Positions 8,737-17,215 of a stretch of 64,000 nt of DNA are shown here, one piece after another (positions within the stretch are counted from its first letter, which is position 1; each line of letters begins with the position of its first letter). The translations under genes and the position numbers were made by a program. The notes below the pieces were generated by a model, which was given only the letters and a program-made list of their open reading frames with translations, had not been told where the DNA came from and did no database searches. The stretch lies in NCBI RefSeq assembly GCF_019704315.1, contig NZ_AP024597.1, positions 372,001 to 436,000 of the forward strand. Direction: 5' to 3'. Origin of the DNA: Stygiolobus caldivivus (GTDB taxonomy: Archaea > Thermoproteota > Thermoprotei_A > Sulfolobales > Sulfolobaceae).

Positions 8737-9696
8737 CTAATTATTATGAGACAAATAAAATATATTAACCTCTCCTTCTTTGGGTAGCCTTGCAAGTGCC
8801 TCTTCCCCGAAATAAACCCCTTCATCCGTATCCAGTCTTATTGCTAAGATCTTTTCTTTGTCAGCTATCGCGGTTAGTAGCCAGCCCCTCCCAATAGGTG
8901 CTGCTGATATTAGTCCGAACCCTTCATGTTTAAGGTATTCCCTCTTAATACCGTAGCACGACATGTTTTTTACAATCTTATCGAAATAGACATAAAGAAA
9001 TGCTCTAAATTCACCTTCTTTAAGTAACTCCTTCATCTTTTCTACATCTAACGACTCTATCGCCTCTACATAATCGGTTCTGGTTGGCGTAGCAGATAAT
9101 TTGTAAAACACAAATGATACGTAATCCCCCATATTAAATACTTCATACCTACAGTTGAATAATTTAGCTACTTCAGGCAACGTTATTTCAACCGCGGCTG
9201 GGTTATCAACTAATACCTCTAGACTTTCTCCGATTCTAATCTCCATTAACTTTTTCTTAGCTTCTATCTCTGGAGCTGGGCATACTAGCCCCCTAAGGTC
9301 TAATAAGTGGTCTCCCACGCTCTTCATAAAAACGGTTCTTTTACGCTTTGAAGAATTATCAATAGAAGTAACTTGCGATATAACGTCTTTATATTTTTCG
9401 ATATTTTTCTCTAACCTAAGCTTTAATGTCTCTTTTAATAAGATGTTTGATGTCTCTACATCTACTGTTACAAGGTTGTCATTTACACTAATTTTGATTA
9501 TAAATTTTCCGTTTTTTTCTACTATTTTTAGGTCTTTCCCTTTCAAATATACCAAACACTTGAAACTTAGAAACCTTGTAAGGGTCAGTTCGGCTTCATA
9601 ACCCCAGTCTAGTTTTTTAATATTCTTAAGTAAATAAAGCCGTGAGAATTTCTCGACATCTAGGATCTTGTCAGCTCCATTAACCTTGAGCTCCAT
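8737..9696 (-). CDS. TusA domain embedded in a larger three-part protein
   Basis: A 319-residue protein. Residues about 1-125 form a beta-rich, lysine-rich domain that I do not recognise. Residues about 128-200 are a clear TusA domain: DLRGLVCPAPEIEAKKKL, then NPAAVEITLPEVAK. Residues about 205-319 form a third, mixed alpha/beta domain (VEAIESLDVEKMKELLKEG ... SAAPIGRGWLLTAI). TusA is normally about 75-85 residues and free-standing. Fusion to two extra domains suggests a dedicated acceptor or enzyme that keeps its sulfur carrier attached. It has its own promoter region and is divergent from the small TusA-like gene at 9762. TusA assignment is firm; overall function is unknown. Confidence 0.75.
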   Translation of the reverse strand: MELKVNGADKILDVEKFSRLYLLKNIKKLDWGYEAELTLTRFLSFKCLVYLKGKDLKIVEKNGKFIIKISVNDNLVTVDVETSNILLKETLKLRLEKNIEKYKDVISQVTSIDNSSKRKRTVFMKSVGDHLLDLRGLVCPAPEIEAKKKLMEIRIGESLEVLVDNPAAVEITLPEVAKLFNCRYEVFNMGDYVSFVFYKLSATPTRTDYVEAIESLDVEKMKELLKEGEFRAFLYVYFDKIVKNMSCYGIKREYLKHEGFGLISAAPIGRGWLLTAIADKEKILAIRLDTDEGVYFGEEALARLPKEGEVNIFYLSHNN

Positions 9697-9761
9697 AAAT
9701 TATAATTACAATAATCAGCTTAATTAACTTTTATTTTCATATTTTAAAATAAGTGATAGAG

Positions 9762-9980
9762 ATGAGATCTGAAGTAAACTTAGTAGGATTATGTTGCTCT
9801 GTACCTCATTTAATCGTATATAACAAACTGAGAAAAATGAGTAAGGGTGATACCTTGCTGGTTATTACCGATGATGCCACTGTAGTTCAAAGGGATATTA
9901 TACCGCTAGCTGAGAAATTCGGTTGTAAGACAACTATAACAAAAGACGAAGACTTATTCAAGATAGAGTTAACAATATAG
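9762..9980 (+). CDS. Small TusA-like protein with altered motif
   Basis: About 72 residues with the TusA pattern: a first strand, GLCCSVPHL, a helix with YNKLRKMSKGDTLLV, then a second helix and a final strand. The usual CPxP reads CCSVP, so the proline after the cysteine is missing and a second cysteine is added. An ATG at 9762 and a GTG at 9753 are both possible; TATA-like ACTTTTATT lies about 30 bases upstream of the ATG. Diverges from the TusA fusion gene, sharing a region of about 65 bases. It may be a persulfide carrier with changed reactivity or a regulator. Confidence 0.65.
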   Translation: MRSEVNLVGLCCSVPHLIVYNKLRKMSKGDTLLVITDDATVVQRDIIPLAEKFGCKTTITKDEDLFKIELTI

Positions 9981-10850: not shown

Positions 10851-11050
10851 TTAAAGTTACGTCTCCTCATAATTCTAGTACAAATTATATTTCCTCTTAT
10901 AGTGGATTAAAGGAAGCGAGTTTTACGTTACGTGAAAGTTAGAAGAGACTTAACTTAATAACAAGTTTAGAAGTTTTCTATATATGGAATATATAACTAT
11001 AGTGCCTAAATAGTATTATATATAAGCCACGTGTAAATACTTATTAACTT

Positions 11051-11554
11051 ATGTGGAGTAAACCGCATATGTTACATTTAATAATCGTCAGACATGGGGA
11101 AGCCGAACCAAAGGTAGAAAATATACCAGATAAAGATAGAAAACTTATTAAAAAAGGACTAAAACAGATGAGGAGAGTAGCGAATTTTATAGACAACATG
11201 AGCTACAAGATAGACAAGGTATTCTCCAGCCCCTACATAAGGGCTTATCAGTCTGCTGAAGCCGTCTTGGAGGAACTAGACGAAGACTTAAAGATAGAGA
11301 CCATCCGCGAACTAGAGCCTGACCAAGACGTAAGTGCACTCGTTGAAAAACTAAAGGAGTTAAACTCAGCACAAACAGAAATGACGATAATGCTGGTAGG
11401 ACATGAACCACATCTGTCAACATTTATTAAAGCCATAACGGGAGGAGAGGTAGAATTAAAAAAGGGAGGAGTTGCAGTAGTGGAGTTTGACCCTACGAAC
11501 GCTAAAGGTAAACTTACTATACTCCTAACACAGAAAATAATGAAGAGACTATGA
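11051..11554 (+). CDS. sixA: SixA-type histidine phosphatase
   Basis: A 167-residue protein of the histidine phosphatase (RHG) superfamily: IIVRHGEAEP at residues 11-20, SSPYIRAYQSA in the middle, and a second catalytic histidine in LVGHEPHLS. The length and motifs match SixA phosphohistidine phosphatases. A TATA box near 11015-11024 supports a leaderless start at the ATG at 11051; another ATG lies six codons in. It opens a five-gene operon (SixA, Ppx, two kinase-fold proteins, CHAD) with overlapping genes. In that setting the substrate may be a phosphorylated protein or small phosphate compound tied to polyphosphate metabolism, which is inference. Confidence 0.82.
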   Translation: MWSKPHMLHLIIVRHGEAEPKVENIPDKDRKLIKKGLKQMRRVANFIDNMSYKIDKVFSSPYIRAYQSAEAVLEELDEDLKIETIRELEPDQDVSALVEKLKELNSAQTEMTIMLVGHEPHLSTFIKAITGGEVELKKGGVAVVEFDPTNAKGKLTILLTQKIMKRL

Positions 11555-12807
11555 ACTATAAGGCCGTAATAGACGCGGGATATAACTCTTTTAGGCTTTC
11601 CCTTTACACGGTCTTCCCTAATAATTCTTTTAGGCTTACGGCTTCACTAAAAGACTACGTAAGGTTAGGATTAGGAGTAAGTGAAGGGAAGCCGATTCCA
11701 GAAGAAAACGTAAAAAGGGCTGAAATAACTCTTCGTAAGTTTAGGGAGTTTTTAGACAAGAAGGGTATTAAAGAAGTAAAAGTACTAGGGACGAGCGCCT
11801 TCAGGTACGCACAGAACGGACCGGAGGTCTCTGAGAGGTTATCTAAAACAATCGACATACCAATTACAGTGTTATCCGGAGAGGAAGAAGGTAGGTACTC
11901 GGCCCTAGCTGTAATAAACACTCTACCGATAGATGAGGGAGTAGTATTTGATATCGGAGGGGGCTCCTTAGAAATTGCTTATTTTTCCCAGAGAAAAATA
12001 AGGGAAATCTACCAGTTTCCGCTAGGCGGTCTGAGGCTTATGGATAAAAGCCCTGAGGAGATAAGAAAGGAAGTTAGGATAGCTTTAGCCTCGTTACCGT
12101 CATCAAAAGGGGTCCTTGTAGGTAGTGGGGGTAACTTAAGGGCGATAGCTAAAATGGACTTAAAACTCGAGGGGGTAAAACTGAACCAAATACACGGGTA
12201 CACAGTGAGTTATGAGAGGATAAGTAAGTACTCTAAAATCTTACCTTCAATGAGCATTAGTGAAAGGTCGCAACTACCCGGTATTGATACGGAAAGGGCA
12301 TTAACGATACACTCTGCTGCAATAGTCATAAAGGAGTTAATGGAAATCCTCGGAAAGGACAGCATAATAACTTCAGCTTTTGGGCTCCGTGAAGGAGTTT
12401 TAATGGAGTCTGAAATTGATACTGTAGAAAAATTAAGGGAATTTTGGTTAGAAGGTCTATCATACCAGTTTAATGTTGAACCGCTCACCTCGTCATTCGA
12501 AAACGTCTTAGCAGAGACTAATGACATTATAGTGGCTACAGCATTCTATTTTTTACAGATAATGAAAGCGTCCAATTTCATCGACCCATACATGGCCTGC
12601 TATAAGGTATTAAGAGAACTCACATTACCTGGATACAGAGCGGACGAGATAAATTTGGTAACTACTATCTGTGCAATAGCTAAGAAATTTAAGAAAAAGT
12701 ATTATAACAAAGTTAAAAAACTCATAGATAAAGATACTCTGCTTATCAAAGCAAAGAAAGTTAAGGAAATAACGGACTCCTATGAACTCGGGGTCAGGAA
12801 ATGGTAG
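11551..12807 (+). CDS. ppx: Ppx/GppA-family exopolyphosphatase
   Basis: A 418-residue protein of the ASKHA-fold Ppx/GppA family. Seen: DAGYNSFRL at residues 8-16, GTSAFRYA near 80-87, [10 protein letters not shown] near 109-117, and the phosphate-binding DIGGGS at 134-139. After about residue 300 there is a helical region like the C-terminal domain of Ppx. It releases terminal phosphate from polyphosphate, or cleaves pppGpp in bacterial relatives; Sulfolobales are known to hold polyphosphate and a Ppx. The start overlaps the sixA stop by 4 bases (ATGA). The neighbouring CHAD protein strongly favours polyphosphate over guanosine nucleotides. Confidence 0.88.
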
Positions 12808-13445
12808 GGCATATTATAGCTTTTGAGGGGATTGATGGTTCTGGTAAATCTAGCCAAGCTAAGCTACTTAAGGACTGGTTAGAGGCTAAAGGGGTACCAG
12901 TGTATTTAACTGAGTGGAACTCTTCAGAGTGGTTACATGAAATAATAAAGGAGGCTAAAAAGAAGAACCTACTTACACCTTTAACATATAGCCTCATCCA
13001 CGCCACAGACTTCGCCGATAGATATGAAAAGTATATTCTGCCGATGTATAGGGCGGGGTACGTGGTGATTTCAGATAGATATATATACACAGCGTATGCG
13101 AGGGACTCTGTAAGAGGGCTAAGTATAGATTGGGTAGCAAAACTCTACTCTTTCGCAATAAAGCCTGATATAGTGTTTTTTATCAGGGTCACTGCTGAAG
13201 AGGCGTTAAGGCGTTTAAGAGAAAACAGGAGGAAAATCAAACCTAATGAGGCAGGGGTAGACGTTTTTCCAGATTTGAAGCCTGAAGATGGGTTTATAAA
13301 GTATCAGGGAGCCGTGCTCTCTGTTTACGATAAACTTTCAAAGAGTGAAAACTTTTACGTTATAGACGGAGAGAAAGACCCTAAATCGATACAGATGGAA
13401 ATCAGAGAAAAAGTAGGTGAAATATTGTGGAAAGAGGAATCTTAA
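12801..13445 (+). CDS. Thymidylate kinase-family protein 1
   Basis: A 214-residue P-loop kinase: GIDGSGKSS at residues 10-18, DRY at 92-94 followed by IYTAYARD, and a basic [10 protein letters not shown] lid region. These fit dTMP kinase. It overlaps the ppx stop by 7 bases and the next gene by 19 bases. The location in a polyphosphate operon raises another possibility: PPK2-type polyphosphate kinases share the thymidylate-kinase fold, and crenarchaea are thought to lack standard ppk genes. dTMP kinase remains the simplest call; a polyphosphate-linked activity is a hypothesis from context. Confidence 0.78.
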
Positions 13446-14062
13446 TAGCTATTGAAGGAGTAGAAGGGTCTGGGAGGAGCACCCACCTCCAAGGAGTGAA
13501 GAAATACCTTGAGGAAGAAGGGTATGGTGTAACCATAATAGGGCTCCAGTCCAGCCAACTACTGGGTGCTAAACTCAGCCAAGTTAAGAGGGACTTAGTG
13601 TTCCAGAGGATAACCTTATTCCTAGCATACGCTACAGATCTAGCGGATCAAATAGAATATACTGTAAAAGAAGCACTTAATTCGGGATTTGTAGTATTAG
13701 CCGACGGGTATGTATACACTTTGATGGCATGGGGGTTAACTAGGGGCCTTGATAAAAACTGGATAAACGACGTCTTGTCCTTTGCATTAAAGCCAGACCT
13801 CGCTATAGCCTTGGTAGCACCAGTGAGTACTATCAGCAGGAGGGTAATTATGAAGAACGGGAAGATAGACCCGTTAACCTCCTCAATAGATTTGTGTATA
13901 AATAAGGACCTTTATACTTCGTTCCGCTATCACGTTAGAACCTTTCAGAGGTATCTCCTCGAGATTTCTAGGGAATATGACCTAAAGGTAGTAAGGACTA
14001 ATAGAAACTACGAGGAAGTACATAAGGAAATAATTAACTACGTTAGAGGTGAGCTCAAGTGA
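13427..14062 (+). CDS. Thymidylate kinase-like protein 2 with altered P-loop
   Basis: A 211-residue paralog of the preceding gene with the same layout, but Walker A reads GVEGSGRST, an Arg at residue 17 replacing the ATP-binding Lys, and the DRY motif reads DGY (93-95). The basic lid is also reduced. It may be a pseudokinase or regulatory partner forming a heterodimer with protein 1, or an enzyme with another phosphate donor. GTG start with GGTGA upstream; the 19-base overlap with protein 1 implies coupled synthesis in similar amounts. Both changes are read directly; loss of activity is inferred. Confidence 0.72.
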
Positions 14063-14670
14063 GACCTGAGGTCTATGCAAATAAGAACCTGAGAAAAGCT
14101 CTTGAATTCAACCCCTCACCTAAGTCGGTTCATGACACTAGAGTAGCCTTAAGGAAATACCTTACCTTAGCTTTAACTCTGAGTAGGTTATATTATAGCC
14201 CACATTGTATATATTATTCAAAGGAAGCTGTAAAGATCTTAGGCAAAATAAGGGATTCCGATATTTCACAATGTATGCCTATAGATAGAGAGCATATGGT
14301 ATCTGAGGTAACAAAAATATTGCCAAGAGTATCTTCTTGTTACCTCCCTAAACTCTATGGGAGTAGACTCGTGGTATTTGAAAAGATAAGGGATTATTAT
14401 GGGTCTCTAAAGGTAGAAGATTTCCACGAGTTCAGAAAAAAAGTTAGGGCTTTATATTACCTGGTAGAAAGCGTAGGAGAAAACGCTGGGTCTTTAAAAG
14501 AAGTAAGTAAAAAATTAGGTGATATGAGAGATGAATACCTAAAAGAATCTTGTAATTCACCCACATCGAGAAAGTTAAGTTACGACCCTAGCCTAGTAGA
14601 GGAAGTTAAAGCTATTACCAGACAAGTAATAATGAGGAGCGAGTTCGACCACCTGAAGGTTTTTGAGTGA
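14059..14670 (+). CDS. CHAD-domain protein (polyphosphate-associated)
   Basis: A 203-residue helical protein with CHAD signatures: VHDTRVALRK near residue 25, FHEFRKKVRALYYLVE in the second half, and LGDMRDEYLKE. CHAD domains use conserved histidines and basic residues to bind polyphosphate, and are often next to ppx or ppk. It starts with GTG overlapping the preceding stop (GTGA) and has AGAGGTGAG as ribosome binding site. As the last gene of the sixA-ppx-kinase-kinase operon it gives the best evidence that the operon acts on polyphosphate granules. Confidence 0.83.
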   Translation: MRPEVYANKNLRKALEFNPSPKSVHDTRVALRKYLTLALTLSRLYYSPHCIYYSKEAVKILGKIRDSDISQCMPIDREHMVSEVTKILPRVSSCYLPKLYGSRLVVFEKIRDYYGSLKVEDFHEFRKKVRALYYLVESVGENAGSLKEVSKKLGDMRDEYLKESCNSPTSRKLSYDPSLVEEVKAITRQVIMRSEFDHLKVFE

Positions 14671-14716: not shown

Positions 14717-17215
14717 TTGCGAGAATTCACAGCTGACCTAAAAGACAGAAAATTTTCCGAAGTAAAGATTGTCGTTGATACGGATAGAGTAGTTGTTGGA
14801 AAAGAGAGATTGTATGAATTAAGCAAAATTGAAGACGTAAGGTTAGTAGAGGGGCTAGGATATAATTATATCGAGATAAAATATCAAGGGGATTGGAGAT
14901 TACTCTGTGAATTTACGAACAAGAAAAAGGAGGAAATGCTAGACTTATATGAGATCCTTAAAGGTAAGGAAGTACCGGAAAGCAGGAAGGAGGATAAAAG
15001 GGTAAAAGTTACAGACTTTTTAGGAACATTATTATCTCCTTATAAATGGCGTATAGTCGGAGGGATTATCGCCTCATCATCGCTGGTAGTGATTACTTTA
15101 ATACCACCCTACCTTCTCAAGTTGCTAATTAACGACGTGTTTCAGAAGAAGAATATTACTCTTTTTCCTGAGTTAATACTCCTCCTTTTCATTTTAAACG
15201 TAGGCAACGTATTCCTGTCTTCACTCCAAAACTTATTACTTAATATGAACGGGCAGAAAATTATTAATGATTTGAGACTTAGGCTTTACGCCCATGTGTT
15301 AGGGATGTCCTCAAGTTTTATAGACCGATATAACACTGGAAGGATTTTGTCCAGGTTGACTACAGATATCAATAATACTTTATGGTTCGTAACTTGGGGG
15401 ATACCTTCACTAGTCACTACCATGGGTACTATAGTGGGGGTAGGAGTGGCGTTGTTTTTAGTCCTGCCTTCTTTAGGTGTATACGCGTTAATCCCCCTAC
15501 CGGTGATAATCTTCGGTACAATTGGCTATAGGAGGATGTCAAAGATCGCCTATCATAAACTCTGGAGGAGGAGTGCTGATATATCATCTCTGATTACAGA
15601 TACTATTCCGAATATAGACAGTATAAAGTCGTATACCTCAGAGAACTTCGAAATATCTAGGTTATCTAAACTAAGCAAAGAAGTAGTAGATGCCCAGCTA
15701 AGAGTAATAAAGACTAATTTGAAGTGGTTCCCATTGATTTCTATTACAATATCTACGGTCACTGTCCTTATCTGGTATATAGGCGGGTTATCTGTACTCA
15801 ATGGTACACTACAGCTCGGGACCTTAGTAGCTTTTGTGACCTATACCTCAATGTTTTATCAACCCGTTCAAAACTTAATTACTTCAGTCATACCTTTTAC
15901 ACAACAGTCTCTAACTTCAATGGAAAGGATAGTAGAAGTATTAAACACTAAGAGTGAAATAAGGGAAATTGAAAGGCCTATATCAATAAAAGTTAAGGGA
16001 AGTTTCGAATTCAAAGACGTAAGTTTTTCTTACGAAGGAGCAAAAAAAGTAGTTGATAATATCTCACTAAAAATCAATCAAGGGGAAAGAATTGCGATAG
16101 TAGGGAGGAGCGGTTCAGGGAAGTCTACGATTATTAAGTTATTACTGAGGTTTTATGACCCGAGCGAAGGTGAGATTTTAGTGGACGGTTTCCCGCTTAA
16201 ACACCTTGAATTAAAGTCGTATAGGAACCAAATAGGATTAATAAGGGCCGAGCCCACTATATTTTACGGCACTGTAGAATACAATATAAGGTACGGGAAA
16301 ACTGACGCTAAGCCTTGGGAGATTATAGCAGCAGCTTTAGCTAGCGGAGCTCATGAGTTCATTATGGAACTACCTTTTGCCTATGACACCCACCTAGGTG
16401 AAAGAGGTAATAAGATCTCCAGCGGGCAGCGGCAGATGATAGAAACGGCTAGGTTATTCCTAAAACGACCTAATGTTATTATACTCGATGAGGCGACTGC
16501 CTCAGTGGATAGTTTAACTGAATCGATAATAATGGAGAGAATAATCAGGGAATTTAAAGACAAAACTATTATAATTGTTGCCCATAGGGCTTCCACACTC
16601 CAATACGTTAACAGGATTATTGTACTAAAGGAGGGTAAAATAGTAGAAGAAGGGACTATTACCTCACTAGTAAATAAAAGAGGTGAATTTTATTCTATAT
16701 TTGAAAACCAGCTTAAGTATTTTCAAGCTAGCATAGAAAAACATGGGGAAGAAGAATTGTCTTCATTCTCTGACTATTTACAGATGTTAGAGCCGGTAAA
16801 AGAAGTCGAATTCATGGACGAGAGGAGGGCTAAGATAAACGGGATAACCTACGAGGTAGAGATATCTAAACCCTTCCCACTATCTAACCCTGATTTACTA
16901 CTTTTAAAAACTAAGGAAGGCAATATCTTTACCGCGTTTAGACCTAAAGGTTATGAAATAATTTCCGGCTATTTAGAGAGGAAATACTTCATACCTAAGG
17001 TCTTAAGAATAGATAAAATAACGACTACGGGAGACGAGTTTACTTGGTATATCGAGACTGACCGAGGTTATACTAAAATAAGGACACGGGGAAGGGGAAG
17101 TATTATTAAAATAGACGGAAGGCTTTTTATAATCGATACCAGTGATGACGTCTTCGAGATTAATTTAAATAGACTTGATAAAAAAAGTATAAAGTTGATA
17201 GATTCCATAGTATAA
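14717..17215 (+). CDS. ABC exporter with extra N-terminal domain and DUF1854-like tail
   Basis: An 832-residue half-transporter. Residues 1-100 form a beta-rich domain; about 105-410 are six membrane helices; the nucleotide-binding domain has Walker A GRSGSGKST near 463-471, signature ISSGQRQM near 567, Walker B VIILDEAT and the H-loop VAHRAS. Residues about 695-832 match my memory of DUF1854 (VETDRG-like ETDRGYTKIRTRG, then FIIDTSDDVFEINLNRLDKKS). Two oddities: the Q-loop position reads RAEPTIF instead of xQEPxLF, and the signature is SSGQ rather than SGGQ. A TTG start at 14717 is used. The substrate is unknown; relatives with this tail occur near cyanophycin genes in bacteria. Confidence 0.78.
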   Translation: MREFTADLKDRKFSEVKIVVDTDRVVVGKERLYELSKIEDVRLVEGLGYNYIEIKYQGDWRLLCEFTNKKKEEMLDLYEILKGKEVPESRKEDKRVKVTDFLGTLLSPYKWRIVGGIIASSSLVVITLIPPYLLKLLINDVFQKKNITLFPELILLLFILNVGNVFLSSLQNLLLNMNGQKIINDLRLRLYAHVLGMSSSFIDRYNTGRILSRLTTDINNTLWFVTWGIPSLVTTMGTIVGVGVALFLVLPSLGVYALIPLPVIIFGTIGYRRMSKIAYHKLWRRSADISSLITDTIPNIDSIKSYTSENFEISRLSKLSKEVVDAQLRVIKTNLKWFPLISITISTVTVLIWYIGGLSVLNGTLQLGTLVAFVTYTSMFYQPVQNLITSVIPFTQQSLTSMERIVEVLNTKSEIREIERPISIKVKGSFEFKDVSFSYEGAKKVVDNISLKINQGERIAIVGRSGSGKSTIIKLLLRFYDPSEGEILVDGFPLKHLELKSYRNQIGLIRAEPTIFYGTVEYNIRYGKTDAKPWEIIAAALASGAHEFIMELPFAYDTHLGERGNKISSGQRQMIETARLFLKRPNVIILDEATASVDSLTESIIMERIIREFKDKTIIIVAHRASTLQYVNRIIVLKEGKIVEEGTITSLVNKRGEFYSIFENQLKYFQASIEKHGEEELSSFSDYLQMLEPVKEVEFMDERRAKINGITYEVEISKPFPLSNPDLLLLKTKEGNIFTAFRPKGYEIISGYLERKYFIPKVLRIDKITTTGDEFTWYIETDRGYTKIRTRGRGSIIKIDGRLFIIDTSDDVFEINLNRLDKKSIKLIDSIV

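Follow-up and report, generated by a model that had tools for sequence, protein, structure and literature searches.

In the genome of Stygiolobus caldivivus, an acidophilic archaeon of hot springs, five overlapping genes encode a SixA-like histidine phosphatase, an exopolyphosphatase (Ppx), two tandem paralogues with the thymidylate kinase (TMK) fold, here named K1 and K2, and a CHAD-domain protein. We consider it very probable that these genes make up a polyphosphate (polyP) operon, in which K1 and K2 constitute a polyP kinase of the family 3 type, with K1 as its catalytic subunit and K2 as a degenerate partner. This reading builds on the gene content, the gene order, a separate dTMP kinase, a set of residue changes and a phylogeny, all observed directly in the genomes compared. 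The features are listed in Table 1, numbered from the first letter of the window, i.e., the whole stretch of 64,000 nucleotides that was analysed (contig NZ_AP024597.1, positions 372,001 to 436,000 of the forward strand).

Table 1. Genes, key residues and putative promoter element of the five-gene unit in the window.
Feature	Position	Strand	Basis
Putative TATA-box-like A+T stretch tattatatataag	11014..11026	+	Read by eye in the sequence; about 25–30 bases upstream of the SixA start
SixA-like histidine phosphatase (RHG and VGHEPH motifs)	11051..11554	+	TIGR00249, PF00300; first gene of the conserved order
Ppx exopolyphosphatase (Ppx/GppA family)	11551..12807	+	PF02541, 1.6e-45, 156 bits, over the cut-off
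K1, kinase with the TMK fold; proposed as the catalytic subunit of a polyP kinase of the family 3 type	12801..13445	+	Thymidylate_kin, 1.8e-26
K1 Walker A GIDGSGKS, intact	12828..12851	+	Lys16 in 32/32 K1
K1 basic cluster KKK, residues 53–55	12957..12965	+	Lys53 and Lys54 K1-specific, 32/32; Lys55 from alignments; absent from canonical TMKs
K1 Phe71 at the canonical thymine-binding Arg position	13011..13013	+	Phe in 32/32 K1
K1 catalytic DRY, intact	13074..13082	+	Arg93 and Tyr94 in 32/32; Asp92 from alignments
K1 Arg101-Asp102 for the canonical Tyr-Gln	13101..13106	+	Arg-Asp in 32/32 K1; canonical Tyr 35/35, Gln 25/35
K1 insertion after the lid region	13230..13280	+	Alignments; in no canonical TMK
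K2, tandem K1 paralogue, proposed catalytically degenerate partner subunit	13427..14062	+	Thymidylate_kin (PF02223), 5.1e-17; sister clade of K1
K2 Arg17 replacing the Walker A lysine	13475..13477	+	Arg in 15/21 Sulfolobaceae K2 and 10/10 K2 of ammonia-oxidising archaea
K2 DG replacing the catalytic DR	13703..13708	+	Gly in 21/21 Sulfolobaceae K2; Arg retained in 10/10 K2 of ammonia-oxidising archaea
CHAD-domain protein, polyP-binding module	14059..14670	+	CHAD histidine motifs; orthologue matches; S. solfataricus CHAD assay (PMC6537752)

The successive open reading frames overlap by 4, 7, 19 and 4 bases. The initial annotation had described the five genes as overlapping one another in a single unit, and the reading frames, the family scans and the gene order elsewhere bear this out: the window and all 20 other Sulfolobaceae loci that were read and have an intact K1–K2 pair share exactly the order SixA-Ppx-K1-K2-CHAD, which also answers its proposal to check the conservation of that order in the Sulfolobales. 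The 20 loci comprise those of 14 relatives from the same family, the draft genome Acd1 (flanks included) and five further genomes (G217, G219, G222, G226 and G227); G214, probably the Acd1 assembly, is left out of the count. In the 14 relatives and Acd1, all five genes lie on one strand in the same order (15/15). Such a shared order is far beyond chance; the genomes are related, and no P-value is therefore attached to it.

With K2 as its marker, the pair occurs in 26 of the 31 genomes of the family. Ppx is detectable in each of these 26, compared with only two of the five that lack the pair, and this co-occurrence, together with the conserved five-gene order, argues for a polyP operon. One of the two exceptions is a remnant: in G059 (L112:5141-6680), a deletion running from the last part of Ppx into the first part of CHAD has removed K1 and K2 entirely. 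This genome keeps its canonical dTMP kinase, so the K1–K2 pair is dispensable there. The other is G216 (L111:4832-6034), with a Sulfolobaceae Ppx not adjoined by K1, K2 or CHAD; K1–K2 were not found anywhere in this genome, which is 79% complete, and its Ppx counts against the polyP kinase reading. Overall, four of the five pair-less genomes have either no Ppx or a broken one. A frame change has split the Ppx gene in G066 and G011. The locus of G218 (L113:2823-8087) is a decaying module, where Ppx is split into two open reading frames and K2 is broken too, in two pieces some 3 kb apart with a 333-amino-acid reading frame, perhaps an insertion element, in between.

A third protein of the Thymidylate_kin family is encoded outside the operon, at C1:1845196-1845714 of the same genome, and scores better against the family profile than K1 or K2 (150 versus 92 and 61 bits). 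A canonical dTMP kinase is present in 31 of the 31 family genomes, and the five genomes without K1–K2 have exactly one TMK each, implying that K1 and K2 are not needed for the phosphorylation of dTMP. K1 is thereby ruled out as the dTMP kinase of the genome. Hence, both eventualities that the initial annotation had named as fatal to its proposal, K1 as the sole dTMP kinase and an unconserved gene order, are excluded. Profiles for the bacterial polyP kinases PPK1 and PPK2 matched in none of the 31 genomes, while positive controls did match; for PPK2 (PF03976), this holds at an E-value of 0.001, and membership of K1 and K2 in the PPK2 family is ruled out. The absence of PPK1 and PPK2 combined with the ubiquitous dTMP kinase supports a polyP kinase identity for the pair.

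We have searched 398 genomes of the phylum with a K1 profile. The Sulfolobaceae orthologues score above 360 bits and ordinary TMKs at most 110, and a second set of 17 genomes emerges at 241–260 bits, every one of them with a tandem second gene at 140–154 bits. All 17 encode archaeal AmoA, which identifies them as ammonia-oxidising archaea (AOA). A canonical TMK accompanies the pair in 17 of the 17, PPK1 was found in 0 of the 17, and PPK2 in 10, leaving seven without PPK1 and PPK2 alike. At the 10 AOA loci that were read (L101–L110), SixA is near the pair in nine, Ppx in seven and CHAD in four; one of them (L101:4431-8752) has the exact SixA-Ppx-K1-K2-CHAD order, and at two loci the families were confirmed by Pfam. 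The recurrence of the pair in AOA, often near the same partner genes, is further support for the polyP kinase reading.

An alignment of 32 K1, 31 K2 (21 from Sulfolobaceae and 10 from AOA) and 35 canonical TMK sequences reveals what sets the pair apart. In dTMP kinases, an arginine in the A-x-D-R motif binds the thymine base, and a Tyr-Gln pair also has an established role. This arginine is present in 35/35 canonical TMKs versus 0/63 K1 and K2 sequences, and K2 has Leu, Ile or Phe in its place. K1 carries six fixed basic residues without a canonical counterpart (Lys53, Lys54, Arg74, Arg101, Arg105 and Lys147), and, following the lid, K1 and K2 have some 14 extra residues in common that none of the 35 canonical TMKs possesses. 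AOA K1 share the residue signature of Sulfolobaceae K1. Loss of the thymine site, new basic residues and the shared insertion all argue for the polyP kinase reading, and the KKK cluster is a candidate polyP contact. By its residues, K1 looks active, yet not as a thymidylate kinase. K2 looks like a degenerate partner: the Walker A lysine has become arginine in 25 of the 31 sequences. Canonical TMKs are dimers. The decay of K2 and the fixed tandem order of the genes suggest that K1 and K2 associate as a heteromer, and the one-sidedness of that decay predicts a kinase with a division of labour.

In a maximum likelihood phylogeny, the K1 sequences of Sulfolobaceae and AOA are joined (support 98/95), as are the K2 sequences of both (99/95), and K1 plus K2 make up a single clade separate from the canonical TMKs (100/100), in line with the polyP kinase reading. 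The split from the canonical TMKs is stable when the insertion columns or the longest branches are omitted, and the unity of K1 is supported at 83 to 96% in these variants. Since K1s join K1s and K2s join K2s, one duplication older than the divergence of Sulfolobaceae and AOA is implied. The tree does not distinguish vertical descent from a transfer of the entire module between lineages. The canonical dTMP kinases of AOA (L121–L130) are themselves divergent, with NRY for DRY and a long branch in the tree.

We lean, if only slightly, towards an obligate two-subunit polyP kinase of K1 and a Walker-A-degenerate K2 that was fixed by a duplication before the Sulfolobales and AOA copies split and also serves as a PPK1-independent polyP synthase in AOA. 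AOA are the leading nitrifying organisms in soils and the ocean, and, if true, this would be their polyP synthase; the pair in genomes without PPK1 is a direct, testable candidate for the making of polyP in these very abundant organisms. PolyP enzymes have been reported in Ca. N. evergladensis, and the system was called absent from the other Thaumarchaeota then known (PMC4084955). The occurrence of the K1–K2 pair in 17 AOA without PPK1 is possibly new.

The S. tokodaii orthologue of K1 is ST1543 (E-value 4.6e-101; PDB 2plr, 4nzy, 4rzx and 5h70), called a dTMP kinase by its depositors. An AlphaFold model of K1 built from four sequences is mediocre (mean pLDDT 66.5); its best matches are TMKs and served solely to confirm the TMK fold. 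K1 shares this fold, the P-loop and the DRY motif with the canonical dTMP kinase (PF02223; G000:C1:1845196-1845714), whereas K1 and K2 differ from it by the lost thymine Arg and Tyr-Gln, the gained insertion and their separate clade. The PPK2 family, likewise, has a TMK-like P-loop kinase fold, but no protein of the genome matches PF03976, and K1 itself resembles TMKs best in its fold. The initial annotation had suggested comparing the kinases with PPK2 structures: in a Dali search published with an F. tularensis PPK2, ST1543 (2PLR, 4NZY) came out as the closest structure after the PPK2s themselves (PMC4748334). The structural link of ST1543 to PPK2 had thus been published by the time the function was proposed. 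This nearness, and the description of entry 5h70 as ADP-bound, favour a polyP kinase.

In the mechanism that we infer, including kinase activity, heteromeric assembly, direction of the reaction and what K2 and SixA do, the two kinase proteins would jointly form the family-3-type enzyme. K1 would transfer the gamma-phosphate of ATP to the growing polyP chain and, acting reversibly, could convert ADP to ATP at the expense of polyP. K2, whose own P-loop and DR residues are for the most part lost, would pair with K1 and either hold the chain or regulate it. Ppx would degrade the chain to phosphate, the CHAD protein would bind polyP and might anchor the enzymes there, and SixA would take phosphate off a histidine or a similar group.

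K1 could, instead, be a second genuine kinase of dTMP or another nucleoside monophosphate (NMP) lodged in a polyP operon, with K2 as a regulatory relic. Its TMK fold, the retained P-loop and DRY, and the NCBIfam call, where K1 exceeds the dTMP-kinase cut-off (101 versus 83), would suit such an enzyme, and this score, like the depositors' label on ST1543, counts against the polyP kinase reading. However, the thymine-binding Arg and Tyr-Gln are replaced in every K1, every genome has its canonical dTMP kinase, and Ppx is gone or broken in most of the genomes devoid of the pair, which makes a genuine NMP kinase very unlikely. It is also conceivable that K1–K2 only use polyP as a donor, as a polyP:NDP or polyP:NMP phosphotransferase, and that another enzyme makes the polymer. 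The pair is structurally near to PPK2s, the kinetics of which often favour polyP-driven ATP synthesis (PMC4748334), but the family lacks PPK1 and PPK2, and the family 3 enzyme of S. acidocaldarius is most likely the K1–K2 pair; a mere consumer of polyP appears quite improbable.

Within the polyP kinase reading itself, K2 rather than K1 might be the catalytic subunit, or both might be equally active, with the changes in K2 only tuning the enzyme. K2 may indeed not be fully inactive, since 6/21 Sulfolobaceae K2 retain the P-loop lysine and AOA K2 retain DRY. Against this, the Walker A lysine is replaced by arginine in all AOA K2 and in 15 of the 21 from Sulfolobaceae, and DR has become DG in 21/21 Sulfolobaceae K2, whereas all 32 K1 sequences are intact. 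We regard either arrangement as unlikely.

In 2021, archaea were still described as having no identified PPK homologue, though crenarchaea accumulate polyP, and Saci_2018 was used as ppx (PMC7831078). A SixA-PPX-dTMP kinase-CHAD cluster was described in biomining archaea in 2024; it consists of the same genes, the kinase being labelled dTMP kinase, and the article describes the polyP synthase of crenarchaea as still unidentified at that time (PMC10892726). An archaeal family 3 polyphosphate kinase from S. acidocaldarius is cited in PMC11677633 and PMC13318637 (2026, JBC version), with reference to Hofmann et al. (bioRxiv 10.1101/2024.08.28.610084; J Biol Chem 2026, 302:111283). This enzyme is most likely the orthologue of K1–K2 and, so far as the citing texts convey it, supports a polyP kinase function of the pair. 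It reportedly belongs to the TMK family, with its genes beside ppx. This PPK3 stems from the same archaeal order as K1–K2 and is described as distinct from PPK1 and PPK2. K1 and K2 are Sulfolobales TMK-like kinases distinct both from the canonical dTMP kinase and from PPK1/PPK2, which we take to be the defining trait of the published PPK3 family.

Given that identity, the core discovery is already published for a relative. The statement of the initial annotation that crenarchaea lack recognised ppk genes holds for the bacterial types and is outdated as regards family 3, while its proposal of the tandem kinases as the candidate for the missing polyP step gains support from gene order, the separate TMK, the absence of PPK1 and PPK2, and the nearness to PPK2 structures; it made no mention of the degeneracy of the second kinase. 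The present analysis contributes the argument from individual residues, the degeneracy of K2, the cases of natural loss, and the occurrence of the pair in AOA that lack PPK1. Sequence alone supports a polyP kinase identity for “dTMP kinase” genes throughout the Sulfolobaceae, closing the crenarchaeal polyP gap, and the automated dTMP-kinase annotation of K1 needs correcting.

The flanking members of the unit were assigned as follows. The SixA protein scores 102 bits against TIGR00249 (cut-off 74.5), and the Ppx of the operon is the only one in the genome. The window CHAD protein stays below the Pfam cut-off of PF05235 (24.1 versus 25.6 bits); 11 of the 12 aligned orthologues match PF05235, and both CHAD histidine motifs (VHDTRVALRK and FHEFRKKVR) are present in the window protein and conserved among orthologues. 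The polyP binding of the S. solfataricus CHAD protein has been assayed (PMC6537752).

A scan for bacterial promoters and terminators yielded nothing useful, nor did an Rfam scan. The position of the putative TATA-like stretch would fit a leaderless archaeal transcript. Directly after the CHAD gene, the window encodes an ABC transporter with a C-terminal DUF1854 (14717-17215); we rejected it as a member of the operon, since, apart from the window, only genome G108 of the same genus (L034) has it beside CHAD. Upstream, at 8737-9980, two divergent genes resemble TusA-type sulfur carriers, as judged by eye; their products, one of 319 amino acids with a CPAPEIEAKKKL motif and one of 75 amino acids, are likely involved in sulfur metabolism.
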